DNA of 64,000 bases, from positions 1,054,001-1,118,000 of the forward strand of contig NZ_LT960612.1 of NCBI RefSeq assembly GCF_900233005.1, in the 5' to 3' direction. The notes beneath the pieces were generated by a model that saw nothing but the letters and a program-made list of their open reading frames with translations, searched no databases and was not told the DNA's origin. The DNA comes from Vibrio tapetis subsp. tapetis. GTDB lineage: Bacteria > Pseudomonadota > Gammaproteobacteria > Enterobacterales > Vibrionaceae. Each line of letters opens with the position of its first letter. The first letter of the stretch is position 1. Positions 11,870 through 16,470 of the stretch are shown here, in pieces. A program made the translations under genes and the position numbers.

Positions 11870-12608
11870 GTTTGCCCAGCGAAGCTGGCAAACCCATTAG
11901 GCTGAAAGAAGCCTAAATCACCCTGATTGAGGGGAAGATAATCCGAATCGCAAGGGCGTTGCTGGCCAACGGCAGGGTTTGAAGGAAGCGATAGGAAGTT
12001 AACAGTACACAACGAAAGTGAACCTGATTCGGCAATTTAGGTGGGTAAGCGTGCAAAATAGCGTGAAGCCCGATACTCAATCAGACCTAGATTGTGCTTG
12101 AGGGTGGCATTGTTAACAGGGAGCCAGTGCAGTAACTGGGGAAGCCTGACACCACATCCGAGCAAACGTCGGAAGCATAAACTCAAGGCGAGAGCCAAGA
12201 TCTATGTTGGTGCGAGGTGGCAGATGAATCCGTAGTAGTGAGTAAAGCTCGGCCGGTGAAGCCCAGTAATGGTGTGGAGGATAAAACTGAGCTGACCATC
12301 AGTAACACGTCTGATGGGACAACATTTTGCCAAAAGCAATCTGGTGTTGCGAAGGGATGAAGTACATTTTAAGTCTGTGATGAGCAGATGTTTTTTTTTT
12401 CAGTGGTATACAAGTTGATTAGCTATCGAGGTATTCCGTCTCGGTCTTTGTGAAAGCAAAGCACTGAAGCGAGAAACCGTACAAGGGAGTAACTCTGACT
12501 CACTCTAGTAAATTGCCATTGAGCTAGAAGGCTAGAGAGTGGAGTGAAATACACCAACACTGTGAGAGAGCATTTGTCCCCACACGGCACACAATCTAAA
12601 GGAAAAAG

Positions 12609-13892
12609 TTGAGAGTTTACTACAGTTTATATGGTCACTTGCTCCACAAAGAGCGACTCTATAAAGGATTTAAAAAAGTGTGGAAAGCGAAAGGCGCGGC
12701 CGGAATAGATAGGCAGAGCCTAAGCGATTACGCCCAAAATCTGAGTGATAACCTAGATCAACTTCTTCTGGAACTCAAAACCAAGCGATACACCCCTCAA
12801 CCCGTCAGACGGGTAGAAATACCGAAAGATGATGGTGGGGTGCGATTACTTGGGATCCCAACAGTACGGGATAGAGTTGTCCAACAAGCTCTAAATGATC
12901 TATTAACCCCAATCTTCGAAGAGCAGTTTCACCCATCCAGCTTTGGGTATAGACCGAATCGAAGTTGTCACGATGCTATAAACAAAGCGACGATGTTCAT
13001 CCGTCGATACGGAATGCAACACGTCGTAGATATGGACTTATCGAAGTGCTTCGATAAGCTCGACCACGAGCTTATTCTAAAAAGCATTAAGAAACGAGTC
13101 ACAGACAGTAGCGTACTGGAGCTCATCAAACAGTTCCTGAAAAGTGGCGTAATGGTTGATGGAGAGTGGCAGCATACCGAGATAGGTAGTCCGCAAGGTG
13201 GAGTAATAAGCCCACTGATAGCGAACATCTATCTGGATGCGTTTGATCAAGAGATGCGAAAGCGAGGACATCGAATAGTCCGTTATGCCGACGACATACT
13301 GATCTTCTGTCGCAGCCGTAAAGGTGCAGAAAATGCGCAAGTACAGGCAACGAAGGTCCTGGAAAAACAGCTCAAGTTAACGGTGAACGAAACCAAATCA
13401 CACATAGCGCACAGCGGCGAAGGTGTGAAATTCCTTGGAATAGAAATCGGTAGCCATTATAGCCGTATTCAGCCAAAGAAAATGTCGACGTTCAAAGGAA
13501 AGTTGAAGCGAGTGACAAGACGCAATGGCGGTAAGCCATTGTTAGAAGTCATTAAACAACTGAATCCACTTCTGAGAGGGTTCAGCCAGTACTTTCGAAT
13601 AGCGAATGCCAACAGGGAGTTTAAGAAACTGGCCGCGTGGTTAAGGCGAAGACTTCGCAGCGTCCAACTACGATTATGGAAAAAACCGACCCGACTCCAC
13701 CGCAGGCTAAGACAGCTAGGTTACGAAGGGTCATTCAGGTATATCTGTATGGATAGTTGGAGAAATGCTGCGAGTCCATTAGCCAGTTACTCGATGCCAA
13801 ATCAATGGTTTAACGACCTTGGATTAGTGAATCTTGAACACGTTAGGACAGGATATGTGTTCAGCCATTATGCTGAATGGAAATGTGCATGA
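12609..13892 (+). CDS. ltrA: Group II intron reverse transcriptase/maturase
   Basis: The 427-residue protein carries the RT palm motifs (SPQGGVISPL, then catalytic YADD in RYADDILIF) and a C-terminal maturase (GIIM) region around LLRGFSQYFRIAN. It reverse-transcribes the intron RNA and assists its splicing. No HNH endonuclease domain follows, so target-primed integration probably depends on nascent strands at replication forks (family knowledge). Translation most likely starts at TTG 12609, with AAAGGAA a few bases upstream. The stop codon overlaps the first bases of domain V, meaning the gene fills domain IV as expected. Confidence 0.93.
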   Translation: MRVYYSLYGHLLHKERLYKGFKKVWKAKGAAGIDRQSLSDYAQNLSDNLDQLLLELKTKRYTPQPVRRVEIPKDDGGVRLLGIPTVRDRVVQQALNDLLTPIFEEQFHPSSFGYRPNRSCHDAINKATMFIRRYGMQHVVDMDLSKCFDKLDHELILKSIKKRVTDSSVLELIKQFLKSGVMVDGEWQHTEIGSPQGGVISPLIANIYLDAFDQEMRKRGHRIVRYADDILIFCRSRKGAENAQVQATKVLEKQLKLTVNETKSHIAHSGEGVKFLGIEIGSHYSRIQPKKMSTFKGKLKRVTRRNGGKPLLEVIKQLNPLLRGFSQYFRIANANREFKKLAAWLRRRLRSVQLRLWKKPTRLHRRLRQLGYEGSFRYICMDSWRNAASPLASYSMPNQWFNDLGLVNLEHVRTGYVFSHYAEWKCA

Positions 13893-13961
13893 GCCGTATA
13901 CGAGGTCCGTACGTACGGTTCTGTGAGAGGGATGAGGCGGAGACGCCTCACCCTACTCGAT
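13891..13961 (+). ncRNA. Group II intron domains V and VI
   Basis: Domain V at 13891-13921 pairs GAGCCGTA with TACGGTTC, retains the catalytic AGC triad and the 2-nt CG bulge, and is capped by a TACG/CGTA hairpin. Domain VI at about 13925-13958 pairs GAG with CTC, GGG with CCC and TGAGGCG with CGCCTCA. It leaves A13955 bulged on the 3' strand, the expected branch point, with the 3' splice site near 13961. Confidence 0.85.
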
Positions 13962-14044: not shown

Positions 14045-14074
14045 TTGCACAAAAAGGTGATCTAGATCTACTAT
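14045..14074 (+). promoter_or_regulatory. Predicted sigma70 promoter of the fluoride-riboswitch operon
   Basis: TTGCAC (14045-14050) and TACTAT (14069-14074) are separated by 18 bp and would start transcription around 14081, just before the aptamer. The promoter lies downstream of the intron, so the insertion has not separated it from the operon. Confidence 0.5.
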
Positions 14075-14083
14075 AGGTTCCAC

Positions 14084-14134
14084 AGGTGATGGGGTTCCAC
14101 CTACTTAACCGCCAATTTGGCTGATGACTCCTAC
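14084..14134 (+). promoter_or_regulatory. Fluoride riboswitch (crcB motif) aptamer
   Basis: The segment matches the crcB-motif core. The AGGTG/CACCT hairpin (14084-14088 with 14098-14102) encloses the conserved ATGGGGTTC. It is followed by a TTAACC linker, a GCC/GGC hairpin (14111-14121) and the conserved tail TGATGACTCCTAC (14122-14134). GGGGT (14091-14095) can form the diagnostic pseudoknot with ACTCC (14127-14131). These RNAs bind fluoride with Mg2+ and usually switch genes on when fluoride rises. It lies about 105 bp upstream of the IscU-like gene. Confidence 0.9.
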
Positions 14135-14235
14135 AGAAACGAAAACAGGTGTATCTGTTGGTGTAGCAATGTAGATTGCTTATCGTTCTGTGGGAATAAC
14201 GCCACAACCACACTTGTTTTCCTTACCATAGGAAA
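14130..14235 (+). promoter_or_regulatory. Predicted expression platform with sequestered ribosome-binding site
   Basis: CCTACAGAAACGA (14130-14142) overlaps the aptamer tail and can pair with TCGTTCTGTGG (14183-14193, one bulged A and one G-U pair), so this helix and the folded aptamer should exclude each other. Two small hairpins (AACAG/CTGTT, 14144-14159; AGCAAT/ATTGCT, 14165-14180) sit inside. Immediately before the start codon TTTCCT (14218-14223) can pair with the Shine-Dalgarno AGGAAA (14230-14235). No hairpin with a T-run is present, so control of translation is more likely than of termination. Confidence 0.5.
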
Positions 14236-14240
14236 GCAGC

Positions 14241-14933
14241 ATGCAATACTCTTCAGATATTCAATCCATGTGCCCAATTCAGCGGGGCGATTTACATCTC
14301 TCTGCGCCAATTCCAGTCGAAGGTCGAATGGTTCGTCCAACGGATGTGATCGCTATTTCGGGCTTAAGTCATGGGGTTGGCACTTGTGCTCCTCAGCAAG
14401 GTGCAGCCAAAATTACGCTTAACGTCAAGCAAGGTCTTATTGAAGAAGCGCTTATTGAAACAATTGGGTGCTCAGGTATGACGCATTCCGCAGCCATGGC
14501 CTCAGAAATCTTGCCTGGAAAAACGATTCTAGAAGCACTAAACACAGATTTGGTGTGTGATGCAATCAATGTCGCGATGAGAGAAATCTTCCTGCAGTTT
14601 GTATACGGTCGTACCCAATCCGCATTTTCTGAAGATGGATTAGAAATTGGTGCAGGGTTAGAAGACTTAGGTAAAACCGTAAGAAGCCAAGTTGGTACAA
14701 GCTATTCCACACGCCTTAAAGGAGCGCGTTATATGGAATTAGCGGAAGGTTATGTCACCGAGTTAGCGTTAGATGAAGACGATGAAATTATCGGATATGA
14801 ATATTTGAACCTAGGAAAAATGATGGCTCTGATTGGTCAAGGGGAATCGGCCGAAAGTGCCATGGCCGAGGCAAAAGGAACATACGGTCGTTTCGATGAA
14901 GCCGTTAAAACCATTAACCCACGTCACGCGTAA
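14241..14933 (+). CDS. IscU/NifU-like iron-sulfur scaffold family protein
   Basis: The 230-residue protein aligns by eye with the IscU/NifU fold. GVGTCAPQQGAAKITLNV, with Cys49, corresponds to the first ligand region. IETIGCSGMTHSAAMASE, with Cys77, corresponds to the GCGxxIASS loop, and LPGKTILEAL to the following helix. Cys11 and Cys106 are additional. The conserved Asp two residues after the first Cys of IscU is absent (CAP instead of CGD), and the C-terminal 100 residues extend beyond a plain IscU. Assembly or repair of Fe-S clusters in the cytoplasm is the family role; the client is unknown. It is first in a two-gene operon led by a fluoride riboswitch, which points to a role in fluoride stress. 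The start at 14241 follows AGGAAA with good spacing. Confidence 0.75.
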   Translation: MQYSSDIQSMCPIQRGDLHLSAPIPVEGRMVRPTDVIAISGLSHGVGTCAPQQGAAKITLNVKQGLIEEALIETIGCSGMTHSAAMASEILPGKTILEALNTDLVCDAINVAMREIFLQFVYGRTQSAFSEDGLEIGAGLEDLGKTVRSQVGTSYSTRLKGARYMELAEGYVTELALDEDDEIIGYEYLNLGKMMALIGQGESAESAMAEAKGTYGRFDEAVKTINPRHA

Positions 14934-14947
14934 TCAGAGGCTCTATT

Positions 14948-15931
14948 ATGAACAATCAAGCGATCCAAATTCTAAAAGACATGAATTTTTGTACCATAGA
15001 ACAGGCATACCAATACTGTTTATCTAACGGCATTGATGCTAAAAAAATGGTGCTCGATACACAGCCCATTGCGTTTGATAATGCATGTGACGCGTATACC
15101 TTGGGTACGGCTCTCGCGCTCTTCCGACACAATCAAAATGCTGAATCTGCGGCATTAAGTATTGGTGAGGGCCTGCAGGCATTTTGTAAACCAGGCAGTG
15201 TTGCTGCTCAAAGGCGTGTTGGACTAGGTCATGGGGCTCTTGCTGCCCGTTTGCTAAATGAAGAAACAAAGTGTTTTGCGTTTTTAGCGGGTCATGAGTC
15301 ATTTGCAGCCGCCGAAGGGGCAATAAAAATTGCACTGAACGCCAATAAATCACGTAAAACACCCATAAAAGTGATCCTAAATGGATTGGGTAAAGATGCC
15401 GCTTACCTTATCTCTCGCATAAATGGTTTTACTTATGTAAGAACTGAATACGATTATGAAACTGGGGAGCTAAACGAAGTCAGTCGTAAACGTTTTTCGA
15501 AAAGTTTACGTGGCGACATTCTCTGTTACGGGGCTGATGATGTCAGAGAAGGCGTGGCAATCATGCACAGAGAAGACGTTGATGTGAGTATAACGGGTAA
15601 CTCGACTAACCCTACTCGATTTCAACACCCTGTTGCAGGTACGTATAAATTAGAAAGGCTCAATCAAGGAAAATCGTACTTTTCAGTGGCTTCAGGAGGG
15701 GGGACTGGCCGTACACTTCATCCCGATAATGTAGCAGCAGGCCCTGCTTCGTATGGTTTGACGGATACGATGGGCAGAATGCATGCAGATGCCCAGTTTG
15801 CTGGCAGCTCCTCTGTACCTGCGCATGTTGCCATGATGGGCTTCATTGGAATGGGCAACAACCCTATGGTAGGCGCAACGGTAGCACTTGCTGTTGCGGT
15901 AGAGCAACAAGAACAGCATGAAGTGGCTTAA
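14948..15931 (+). CDS. GGGtGRT family protein
   Basis: The 327-residue protein carries the family signature SGGGTGRT at about residues 249-256 and glycine-rich stretches near the C-terminus (GFIGMGNNPMVGA). This is a family of unknown function found next to IscU-like scaffold proteins. Eight or so cysteines are scattered through it, with no CxxC pair. It starts 14 bp after the upstream gene with AGAGG at 14936-14940, so the two are almost certainly co-translated under the riboswitch. A dehydratase-like or Fe-S client role is only a guess. Confidence 0.75.
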   Translation: MNNQAIQILKDMNFCTIEQAYQYCLSNGIDAKKMVLDTQPIAFDNACDAYTLGTALALFRHNQNAESAALSIGEGLQAFCKPGSVAAQRRVGLGHGALAARLLNEETKCFAFLAGHESFAAAEGAIKIALNANKSRKTPIKVILNGLGKDAAYLISRINGFTYVRTEYDYETGELNEVSRKRFSKSLRGDILCYGADDVREGVAIMHREDVDVSITGNSTNPTRFQHPVAGTYKLERLNQGKSYFSVASGGGTGRTLHPDNVAAGPASYGLTDTMGRMHADAQFAGSSSVPAHVAMMGFIGMGNNPMVGATVALAVAVEQQEQHEVA

Positions 15932-16470
15932 TGGCACTGGTTAAGGTAGACATTAAGTTCAATAGAAGATTTACATTGTAAATTTCCTCAGGAATGTCCG
16001 TAATTCAAACAACTTGTGATTTAAAAGGGGAAATGTAAAGGTTTGATTATTACTCTTTTATTGTTTTCCAATGTTATGCATACTAAAACCAACCAAAAAT
16101 GCTAAAAAATATTCATATCCGAGATTTTTTAGCCCCCTATAATTGGTTACCTAATCCCACGTCTAGTCAACGTGGGATTTTTTATTATCTCACTTAACTT
16201 GATTCCTAAAAGAGCGCTCAGCCTTGGTGCGGCTTTGTCTAAGAGATTATTTAGGTAATCTATAATTGATGAAAAGCACTTTCTTTTAGAAACGAGTAAA
16301 GTGCAGGTAAAGTACAAAGAGAGGTTGCTGATGAATCCACTATTGAATCATCCCCGAATCGTTTGACGCGATGTGTTCTGAGCGTGAACATATCGCCACT
16401 GTTACTGTCAGTTTATTAATTGGCATAACGTTCCGTGGCAAAAGTTTAAATCTATACAGAGAATCTTGTC
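15932..16470. other. Intergenic region with operon terminator
   Basis: It holds an AT-rich hairpin (GCTAAAAAAT at 16101-16110 with ATTTTTTAGC at 16124-16133), then the terminator at 16153, then about 280 bp leading to the acetyltransferase gene. A 12-codon reading frame at 16331 has no recognisable partner. No attC-like or IS end sequence was identified. Confidence 0.5.
16153..16185 (+). terminator. Intrinsic terminator of the riboswitch operon
   Basis: Arms AATCCCACG (16153-16161) and CGTGGGATT (16171-16179) with a 9-nt loop run into a T-rich tract. Confidence 0.88.

Follow-up and report, generated by a model that had tools for sequence, protein, structure and literature searches.

What does a fluoride riboswitch control when the genes behind it encode no fluoride exporter? 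This question is raised by a locus in Vibrio tapetis subsp. tapetis, which lies within a stretch of 64,000 nucleotides (contig NZ_LT960612.1, positions 1,054,001 to 1,118,000 of the forward strand) that was analysed as a whole and is referred to as the window; all coordinates are those of the window unless another locus is named. At this locus, a fluoride riboswitch precedes a gene for an IscU/NifU-fold protein (U) and a gene for a GGGtGRT protein (G), together termed U-G. Given the combined evidence from regulation, gene neighbourhood, iron response and the literature, the leading hypothesis is that U-G is an iron-dependent, fluoride-resistant substitute for enolase, to which we assign a probability of roughly 0.37. 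The wider statement that U-G is an iron-dependent metabolic enzyme is likely to be correct. Publications are cited by their PMC identifiers.

A fluoride riboswitch precedes a non-exporter operon

Three matches were returned by an Rfam scan of the whole window. One, which covers the full model length, places the fluoride riboswitch RF01734 at 14076-14140 (+ strand; cmscan, E = 2.1e-14, 60.8 bits with the gathering score at 34); the others are two portions of a group II intron farther upstream. The covariance model thus confirmed the crcB-motif aptamer that a preliminary description, made from the letters alone, had recognized here. The two-gene operon claimed behind the aptamer was likewise found, with U (14241-14933, + strand, 230 amino acids) and G (14948-15931, + strand, 327 amino acids) separated by a gap of 14 bases; both genes were assigned from open reading frame, profile, predicted fold and alignment. 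G was correctly named as a GGGtGRT protein, since it matched PF14057 over its full length (E = 1.6e-169, 563.5 bits against a cut-off of 27). In profile searches, neither U nor G matched the CrcB/Fluc or CLC-F family. The aptamer was also said to have a promoter in front. A promoter-like element, TTGCAC-18 nt-TACTAT, was read directly at 14045-14074 on the + strand (boxes at 14045-14050 and 14069-14074) and is partly conserved in an alignment of 18 leaders, but it was not among the matches of a consensus promoter scan.

The host genome (5.73 Mb, 3 contigs) contains one RF01734 match and one PF14057 match, both at the U-G locus. Its single CrcB gene is located on contig 1 without an adjoining riboswitch, and a CLC-F query gave no match to the genome at E 1e-60. 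The aptamer is a full match to the known RF01734 riboswitches and, like them, stands upstream of a conserved operon, but its target is not CrcB, CLC-F or another of the response genes named in the excerpts of PMC11139923. It is nearly certain that a fluoride riboswitch here stands before a conserved operon encoding a non-exporter pair. From the observed position of the aptamer before U-G and its conservation in the family, we infer that the locus is a fluoride-induced operon.

The association is retained in Vibrionaceae

The conservation of the arrangement was assessed in a sample of 197 Vibrionaceae genomes. PF14057 was present in 86 of them, and RF01734 was present in 115, with 130 hits (8 below the gathering score). 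With the exception of G011, every G-bearing genome (85/86) carries a riboswitch upstream of G on the same strand, at a distance of 812-1026 bases, which leaves room for U between them. Such retention indicates an association beyond chance, and the early claim that the riboswitch addresses a non-exporter operon holds across the family. No other target in the sample accounts for as many fluoride riboswitches as U-G, with 85 of the 130 hits. The remaining 45 hits lie elsewhere; the four that were read precede a CrcB gene (L054) or genes that we take to be CLC-F-like from their GREGT motif (L055, L056 and L061). In G104, the riboswitch, U, G and a CLC gene stand on one strand, and the CLC gene product belongs to PF00654 and is 62% identical to the L055 protein.

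The leader is consistent with a translational ON switch

The leader between the aptamer and U was examined in the 18-leader alignment (A5). The helices were picked from the sequence of the window, so the percentages of paired alignment cells are biased towards them. Five segments on the + strand were defined: D (14130-14138), which is the 3' end of the aptamer; A (14141-14152); E (14186-14194); B (14210-14223); and C (14230-14238), which carries the Shine-Dalgarno sequence AGGAAAG.

The 12-bp helix of A with B (14210-14221), the putative anti-sequestor, was paired in 96.7% of cells and showed two-sided changes in 5 of 12 pairs, a count reached by 1 of 500 shuffles; when the helix was slid by up to three columns as a control, pairing was 46-57%. 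The anti-aptamer helix, in which E forms the 3' arm opposite D, was paired in 88.8% of cells with two-sided changes in 3 of 9 pairs. The sequestor helix (14215-14223 of B with 14230-14238 of C) was paired in 98.1% of cells, with one-sided variation only. When D-E, B-C and a small inner hairpin were taken together, the paired cells and the covariation score were reached by 0 of 500 shuffles, and the count of two-sided changes was reached by 61 of 500, i.e., it does not exceed that of shuffles. The fold of the leader alone was unremarkable (z -1.61).

Because A lies inside the D-E helix and B outside it, A-B and D-E are mutually exclusive; because A-B and B-C share arm B, these two compete. The covariation supports the view that the leader is a translational ON switch, in which both the switching and its ON direction are inferred from the alternative helices. 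Without fluoride, the D-E helix would trap A, B would pair with C, and the ribosome site would be hidden. With fluoride, the aptamer would retain D, A would be free to take B, and the ribosome site would be exposed. Known fluoride riboswitches follow ON logic, the same direction as that proposed here. Among RF01734 riboswitches, those of the clade of the window share this translational platform with its 12-bp anti-sequestor.

U and G depart from known scaffold proteins and from enolase

The first gene had been described as IscU-like. This stands for the predicted fold, in which residues 38-129 of U match IscU, but the sequence scored below every curated cut-off of the NifU/IscU models (PF01592, 19.3 against 22 bits, E = 0.0013; TIGR01999, 18.8 against 192.4 bits; TIGR03419, 26.3 against 187.9 bits, E = 8e-6). 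Beyond the IscU-like part, U extends by an extra C-terminal domain of about 80 residues. In IscU scaffolds, the C-G-D element, a first cysteine followed by glycine and aspartate, is needed for a labile cluster. In a pairwise alignment, this element corresponds to Q53-G54-A55 of U, so that U lacks both the usual first cysteine position (Gln53) and the aspartate (Ala55). The absence of the aspartate had been noted before, as following Cys49; in fact the whole C-G-D is replaced by Q-G-A, and Cys49 sits four residues upstream of the canonical first cysteine position. Cys49, Cys77 and Cys106 are invariant in 53 aligned rows.

In G, Cys109 is invariant and Cys24, Cys80 and Cys193 are nearly invariant in 55 aligned rows. 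The protein is predicted to consist of a helical N-terminus and a Rossmann-like domain, and invariant His, Asp and Arg residues and Gly loops are plentiful. Neither U nor G matched the enolase models PF00113 and PF03952 at E values up to 1, and no fold relation to enolase was seen. Enolase uses magnesium as cofactor, in contrast to the iron-sulfur cofactor proposed for U-G.

Fluoride control is an addition to a widespread pair

To place the operon in a wider context, contigs were searched with an alignment of G; the loci named below are drawn from the best 80 of at least 573 confirmed relatives. U is directly upstream of G in 78 of these 80 loci, the other two being interrupted by contig ends, and U differs from the IscU/NifU scaffold in being tied to such a partner. 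U was also found in 99 of 100 further G regions; in the remaining one (L158), G adjoins the contig end. G is common in anaerobes; it was detected in 36 of 198 genomes of the order of Segatella copri, in 117 of 245 of the Clostridium saudiense class and in 3 of 247 of the Draconibacterium phylum. It is rare in Gammaproteobacteria at large, where among 369 genomes it occurred only in that of the window, apart from one false sub-threshold match.

Of the 80 loci, 73 were scanned with Rfam (all except L135, L137, L138, L141, L142, L144 and L145). A fluoride riboswitch was found in 8, which belong to Aliivibrio sifiae, Vibrio splendidus, Vibrio fluminensis, Photobacterium aquae, Photobacterium piscicola, two Shewanella and Motilimonas pumila; the 65 loci without one include the gammaproteobacterial L096 and L099. 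A further survey covered 80 U-G genomes, comprising 78 Clostridia and Bacteroidota together with Motilimonas and Shewanella, under stricter filters, at the cost of some weak matches. The search works in these groups, since 21 of the 80 gave an RF01734 match, 17 of them above the cut-off. A riboswitch beside U-G was found only in Motilimonas, Shewanella and a single one of the other 78 genomes, G684.

The locus of G684 (L212; class of Clostridium saudiense) carries on one strand a riboswitch (38.5 bits), U, G, a crcB remnant, a second aptamer and two genes that are presumably MutS-like. The second aptamer (L212 6747-6817, - strand) scored 33.2 bits, just under the gathering score. The crcB remnant (L212 6819-7020, - strand) is degenerate and was read from the letters as two short frames. 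A tree of 180 G proteins was built by a quick method, with rows lacking an Rfam scan counted as riboswitch-free. The riboswitch is present in 28 of 29 rows of one gammaproteobacterial clade (support 99 in the Shimodaira-Hasegawa-like approximate likelihood ratio test, SH-aLRT). L212 falls outside that clade and groups with Oscillibacter L145, Oscillospiraceae L137 and Bacillota L114 (85), and the riboswitch label requires three changes on the tree. Judged from the sequences, G684 is a riboswitch case separate from the gammaproteobacterial clade.

Since most anaerobes carry U-G without the riboswitch, fluoride control is an add-on, and U-G is not a dedicated fluoride system. The suggestion that U-G might form a fluoride tolerance system of its own is not supported as a general rule, considering that 65 of 73 loci and 77 of 78 non-gammaproteobacterial genomes have no riboswitch there. 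The same absence from most U-G operons outside Gammaproteobacteria could speak for an accidental or chance capture of the riboswitch without a functional fluoride link. Given the 85/86 retention, the leader covariation, the separate G684 case and the operons shared with exporters, such a capture is very improbable.

Exporters and glycolytic genes are found near U-G

Exporter genes adjoin U-G in three Bacteroidota loci. In L081 (Draconibacterium), crcB, DUF190, U, G, C_GCAxxG and enolase stand on one strand, and L161 has crcB, DUF190, U, G and C_GCAxxG on one strand. In L160, U-G is followed by crcB, DUF190 and enolase on the opposite, convergent strand; U-G follows DUF190 in L161, where L160 has enolase. 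Nine of these proteins were confirmed by Pfam. No RF01734 match was found in L081, L160 or L161 even at E values up to 1. A phmmer search for CrcB was positive in 2 of 20 Bacteroidales regions (L160 and L161) and in 0 of 59 Clostridia regions, and the L212 remnant was missed by it. In L207, a CLC-type gene (E = 5.4e-72) lies near U-G. Such operons, in which U-G is joined by CLC, CrcB or DUF190 genes, would fit a pair that helps an exporter or whose ligand is fluoride, a metal-fluoride complex or a metal. Against this stand the 45 of 130 Vibrionaceae riboswitch hits away from U-G, at exporters in the four read, because exporters with a riboswitch and no U-G evidently do not need the pair. The high expression in anaerobes (excerpts of PMC11204068 and PMC7035244), most of which have no fluoride control of the pair, points the same way, and a role of this kind appears improbable.

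Neighbouring genes were counted over 149 non-gammaproteobacterial U-G loci. Enolase occurs near U-G in 5 of them (L081, L085, L089, L101 and L160), C_GCAxxG in 4, crcB in 3 and DUF190 in 3. By direct queries, iPGM was found in 3 loci (L112, L151 and L159), and in L151 it immediately precedes U in the same orientation. Direct queries also found a gene of the PFK family, which we take to be pyrophosphate-dependent phosphofructokinase (PFP), in 8 loci, all of them Bacteroidales (L120, L155, L157, L159, L164, L166, L167 and L168). In the G tree, the enolase loci fall into three clades (L081 with L160; L085 with L089; L101), the iPGM loci into three and the PFP loci into two. The larger neighbour clusters are ABC-transporter ATPases (18 loci) and shadow frames. 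Among the neighbour families listed, HSP90 occurs once and flavodoxin three times.

Expression of the pair follows iron

In the early phase of Clostridium pasteurianum cultures with iron, the GGGtGRT protein was 7.1-fold upregulated and a NifU-related protein of neighbouring tag was 2.4- and 3.7-fold upregulated, and two enolase spots were upregulated without iron by 4.1- and 4.8-fold (excerpts of PMC5395762). The Bacteroides thetaiotaomicron genes BT0173-74, which are the pair, were downregulated 11-12.8-fold in low iron (PMC10434189, in part). In chicken caecum isolates, GGGtGRT is reported to be highly expressed across distant taxa and NifU to be expressed too (excerpts of PMC11204068). GGGtGRT is also listed in rumen proteomes, one of which includes NifU as well (PMC7035244 and PMC12643325, in part).

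A link to iron, together with the predicted IscU fold of U and the co-regulation with iron-sulfur proteins in C. pasteurianum (excerpts of PMC5395762), would also be expected if U-G served to assemble or repair iron-sulfur clusters, protecting or rebuilding those damaged in fluoride stress or in accompanying oxidative or acid stress. However, U lacks the C-G-D element of IscU, such a function leaves the conserved partner G unaccounted for, and the pair is more strongly expressed when iron is present. Among the neighbour families listed (the first 25 of 72, the first 25 of 75 and the first 28 clusters), neither a cysteine desulfurase nor a ferredoxin was seen. We therefore consider an assembly or repair function unlikely.

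A possible enolase substitute

The pair had been proposed to repair or replace a fluoride-sensitive metalloenzyme. Replacement has become the leading hypothesis, with enolase as the candidate on account of the gene neighbours, the iron response and a gap in the literature. Enolase is inhibited by fluoride, and its genes frequently lie behind fluoride riboswitches, so that regulation and proposed role would be alike for enolase and U-G (excerpts of PMC11139923). The gap concerns bacteria in which enolase is missing. Oscillibacter valericigenes is a glucose fermenter with no enolase gene found (PMC3558957, in part), enolase is missing from about half of the sequenced Butyrivibrio strains with an unknown substitute (excerpts of PMC6118326), and Butyrivibrio proteoclasticus is described likewise as lacking enolase, its substitute being unknown (PMC2914790 and PMC11187502, in part). 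Endomicrobia lack enolase, and Treponematales, Bacteroidales and Clostridiales are cited as further examples (excerpts of PMC11257099). Bacteroidetes isolates from chicken caecum show low or absent phosphoglycerate mutase (PGM) and enolase (excerpts of PMC11204068). U-G carriers include an Oscillibacter metagenome-assembled genome (L145), several Oscillospiraceae, Bacteroidales and a Spirochaete. No publication pairing GGGtGRT with fluoride was found, although a 2012 list of genes behind fluoride riboswitches, which lay outside the search, may already name it. Publications mentioning both GGGtGRT and enolase draw no link between them in the excerpts seen.

In the proposed mechanism, U, with three invariant cysteines and a replaced C-G-D element, would keep its iron-sulfur cluster and act as a working subunit instead of handing the cluster on, and G, with its Rossmann-like domain, invariant His, Asp and Arg residues and Gly loops, would bind the substrate. 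Together they may form an oxygen-sensitive iron-sulfur hydro-lyase that converts 2-phosphoglycerate to phosphoenolpyruvate (PEP), or bypasses that step, by a reaction that would need no magnesium site of the kind blocked by fluoride. Anaerobes would use U-G routinely, and Vibrios would turn it on when fluoride inhibits their ordinary enolase. Still more tentative is the full form of this proposal, according to which U-G is a second, non-homologous enolase, a two-subunit iron-sulfur hydro-lyase that supplies PEP in anaerobes and has been placed under fluoride riboswitches in Vibrios, Shewanella and at least one Clostridia lineage.

Several observations weigh against the enolase reading. The predicted fold of G has no clear relative. 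Integrases and two further gene groups, which we take to be a methionine-salvage block and FprA-like flavoproteins, turn up near U-G in 5-6 loci, so other genes are neighbours about as often as enolase. All three crcB loci (L081, L160 and L161) belong to one eight-row clade and are hence not independent. Outside Gammaproteobacteria, nearly all U-G genomes (77 of the 78, under the stricter filters) do without a riboswitch beside the pair. The enolase-free groups and the U-G carriers overlap by taxon only, not genome by genome; enolase is also present in the carriers C. pasteurianum, L081, L085, L089, L101 and L160, where U-G would therefore be at most redundant. In G684, the 800 kb of 3.13 Mb that were searched contain no enolase, iPGM or PFP, a result uninformative on complementarity. 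Many other C. pasteurianum proteins also rise without iron, which makes the enolase change unspecific (excerpts of PMC5395762), and Saccharibacteria are also cited as enolase-free (excerpts of PMC11257099). Enolase activity in B. proteoclasticus extracts is reported as very low (PMC2914790, in part). Finally, enolase-negative Butyrivibrio show no substantial gained function in the excerpts of PMC6118326, as would be expected only if both groups carry U-G.

The regulatory and iron evidence would be identical if U-G were an iron-dependent enzyme that bypasses another fluoride-sensitive step, such as phosphoglycerate mutase, a phosphatase, pyrophosphate metabolism or the serine branch. PFP near 8 loci, iPGM near 3 loci in as many clades as enolase, and the low PGM alongside enolase in Bacteroidetes isolates (excerpts of PMC11204068) favour such a step. 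Because enolase neighbours are confined to three clades and iPGM is equally widespread, our confidence in the enolase reading is reduced. However, enolase is the glycolytic neighbour that is also found within the crcB clusters with U-G (L081 and L160), it is a known fluoride target under riboswitches (excerpts of PMC11139923), and it catalyses the step with the published gap. For these reasons enolase is favoured, and a bypass of another step seems somewhat unlikely.

If U-G does replace enolase, it would explain how some bacteria ferment sugar without an enolase gene, and it would be a fluoride-proof stand-in for magnesium enolase in Vibrios, Shewanella and at least one Clostridia lineage. 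In either case, the fluoride riboswitch points to an iron-linked pair of uncharacterised proteins abundant in gut and rumen bacteria, and even if the enolase reading fails, the operon provides a handle on the function of the conserved, highly expressed GGGtGRT family.

Mobile elements and other features of the locus

A hairpin with a T tail at 16153-16179 on the + strand, 3' of the operon, resembles a terminator. It is weak, because the pattern scan found 2 such hairpins in the region against 2.2 expected by chance. Upstream of the operon, a group II intron (11870-13960) with a reverse-transcriptase frame (12609-13892) forms a clean insertion that is absent from the close relative G136 (L235). 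It ends 115 bases 5' of the aptamer and leaves the promoter region intact.

Signs of mobile elements were also seen at the 3' end of G in other genomes. In L190, L199, L216, L228 and L229 (Clostridia), 82-123 bases of this end recur in direct orientation 1.7-15 kb farther downstream, with 91-100% identity, and Phage_integrase matched 7 of the 72 nearest downstream frames of G. Mobile elements seem to use the 3' end of G preferentially for attachment. In the Vibrionaceae genome G057 (L230), G is split into residues 10-305 and 299-326 about 7 kb apart with phage-like frames between them, as if an element had inserted in the 3' end of the gene.

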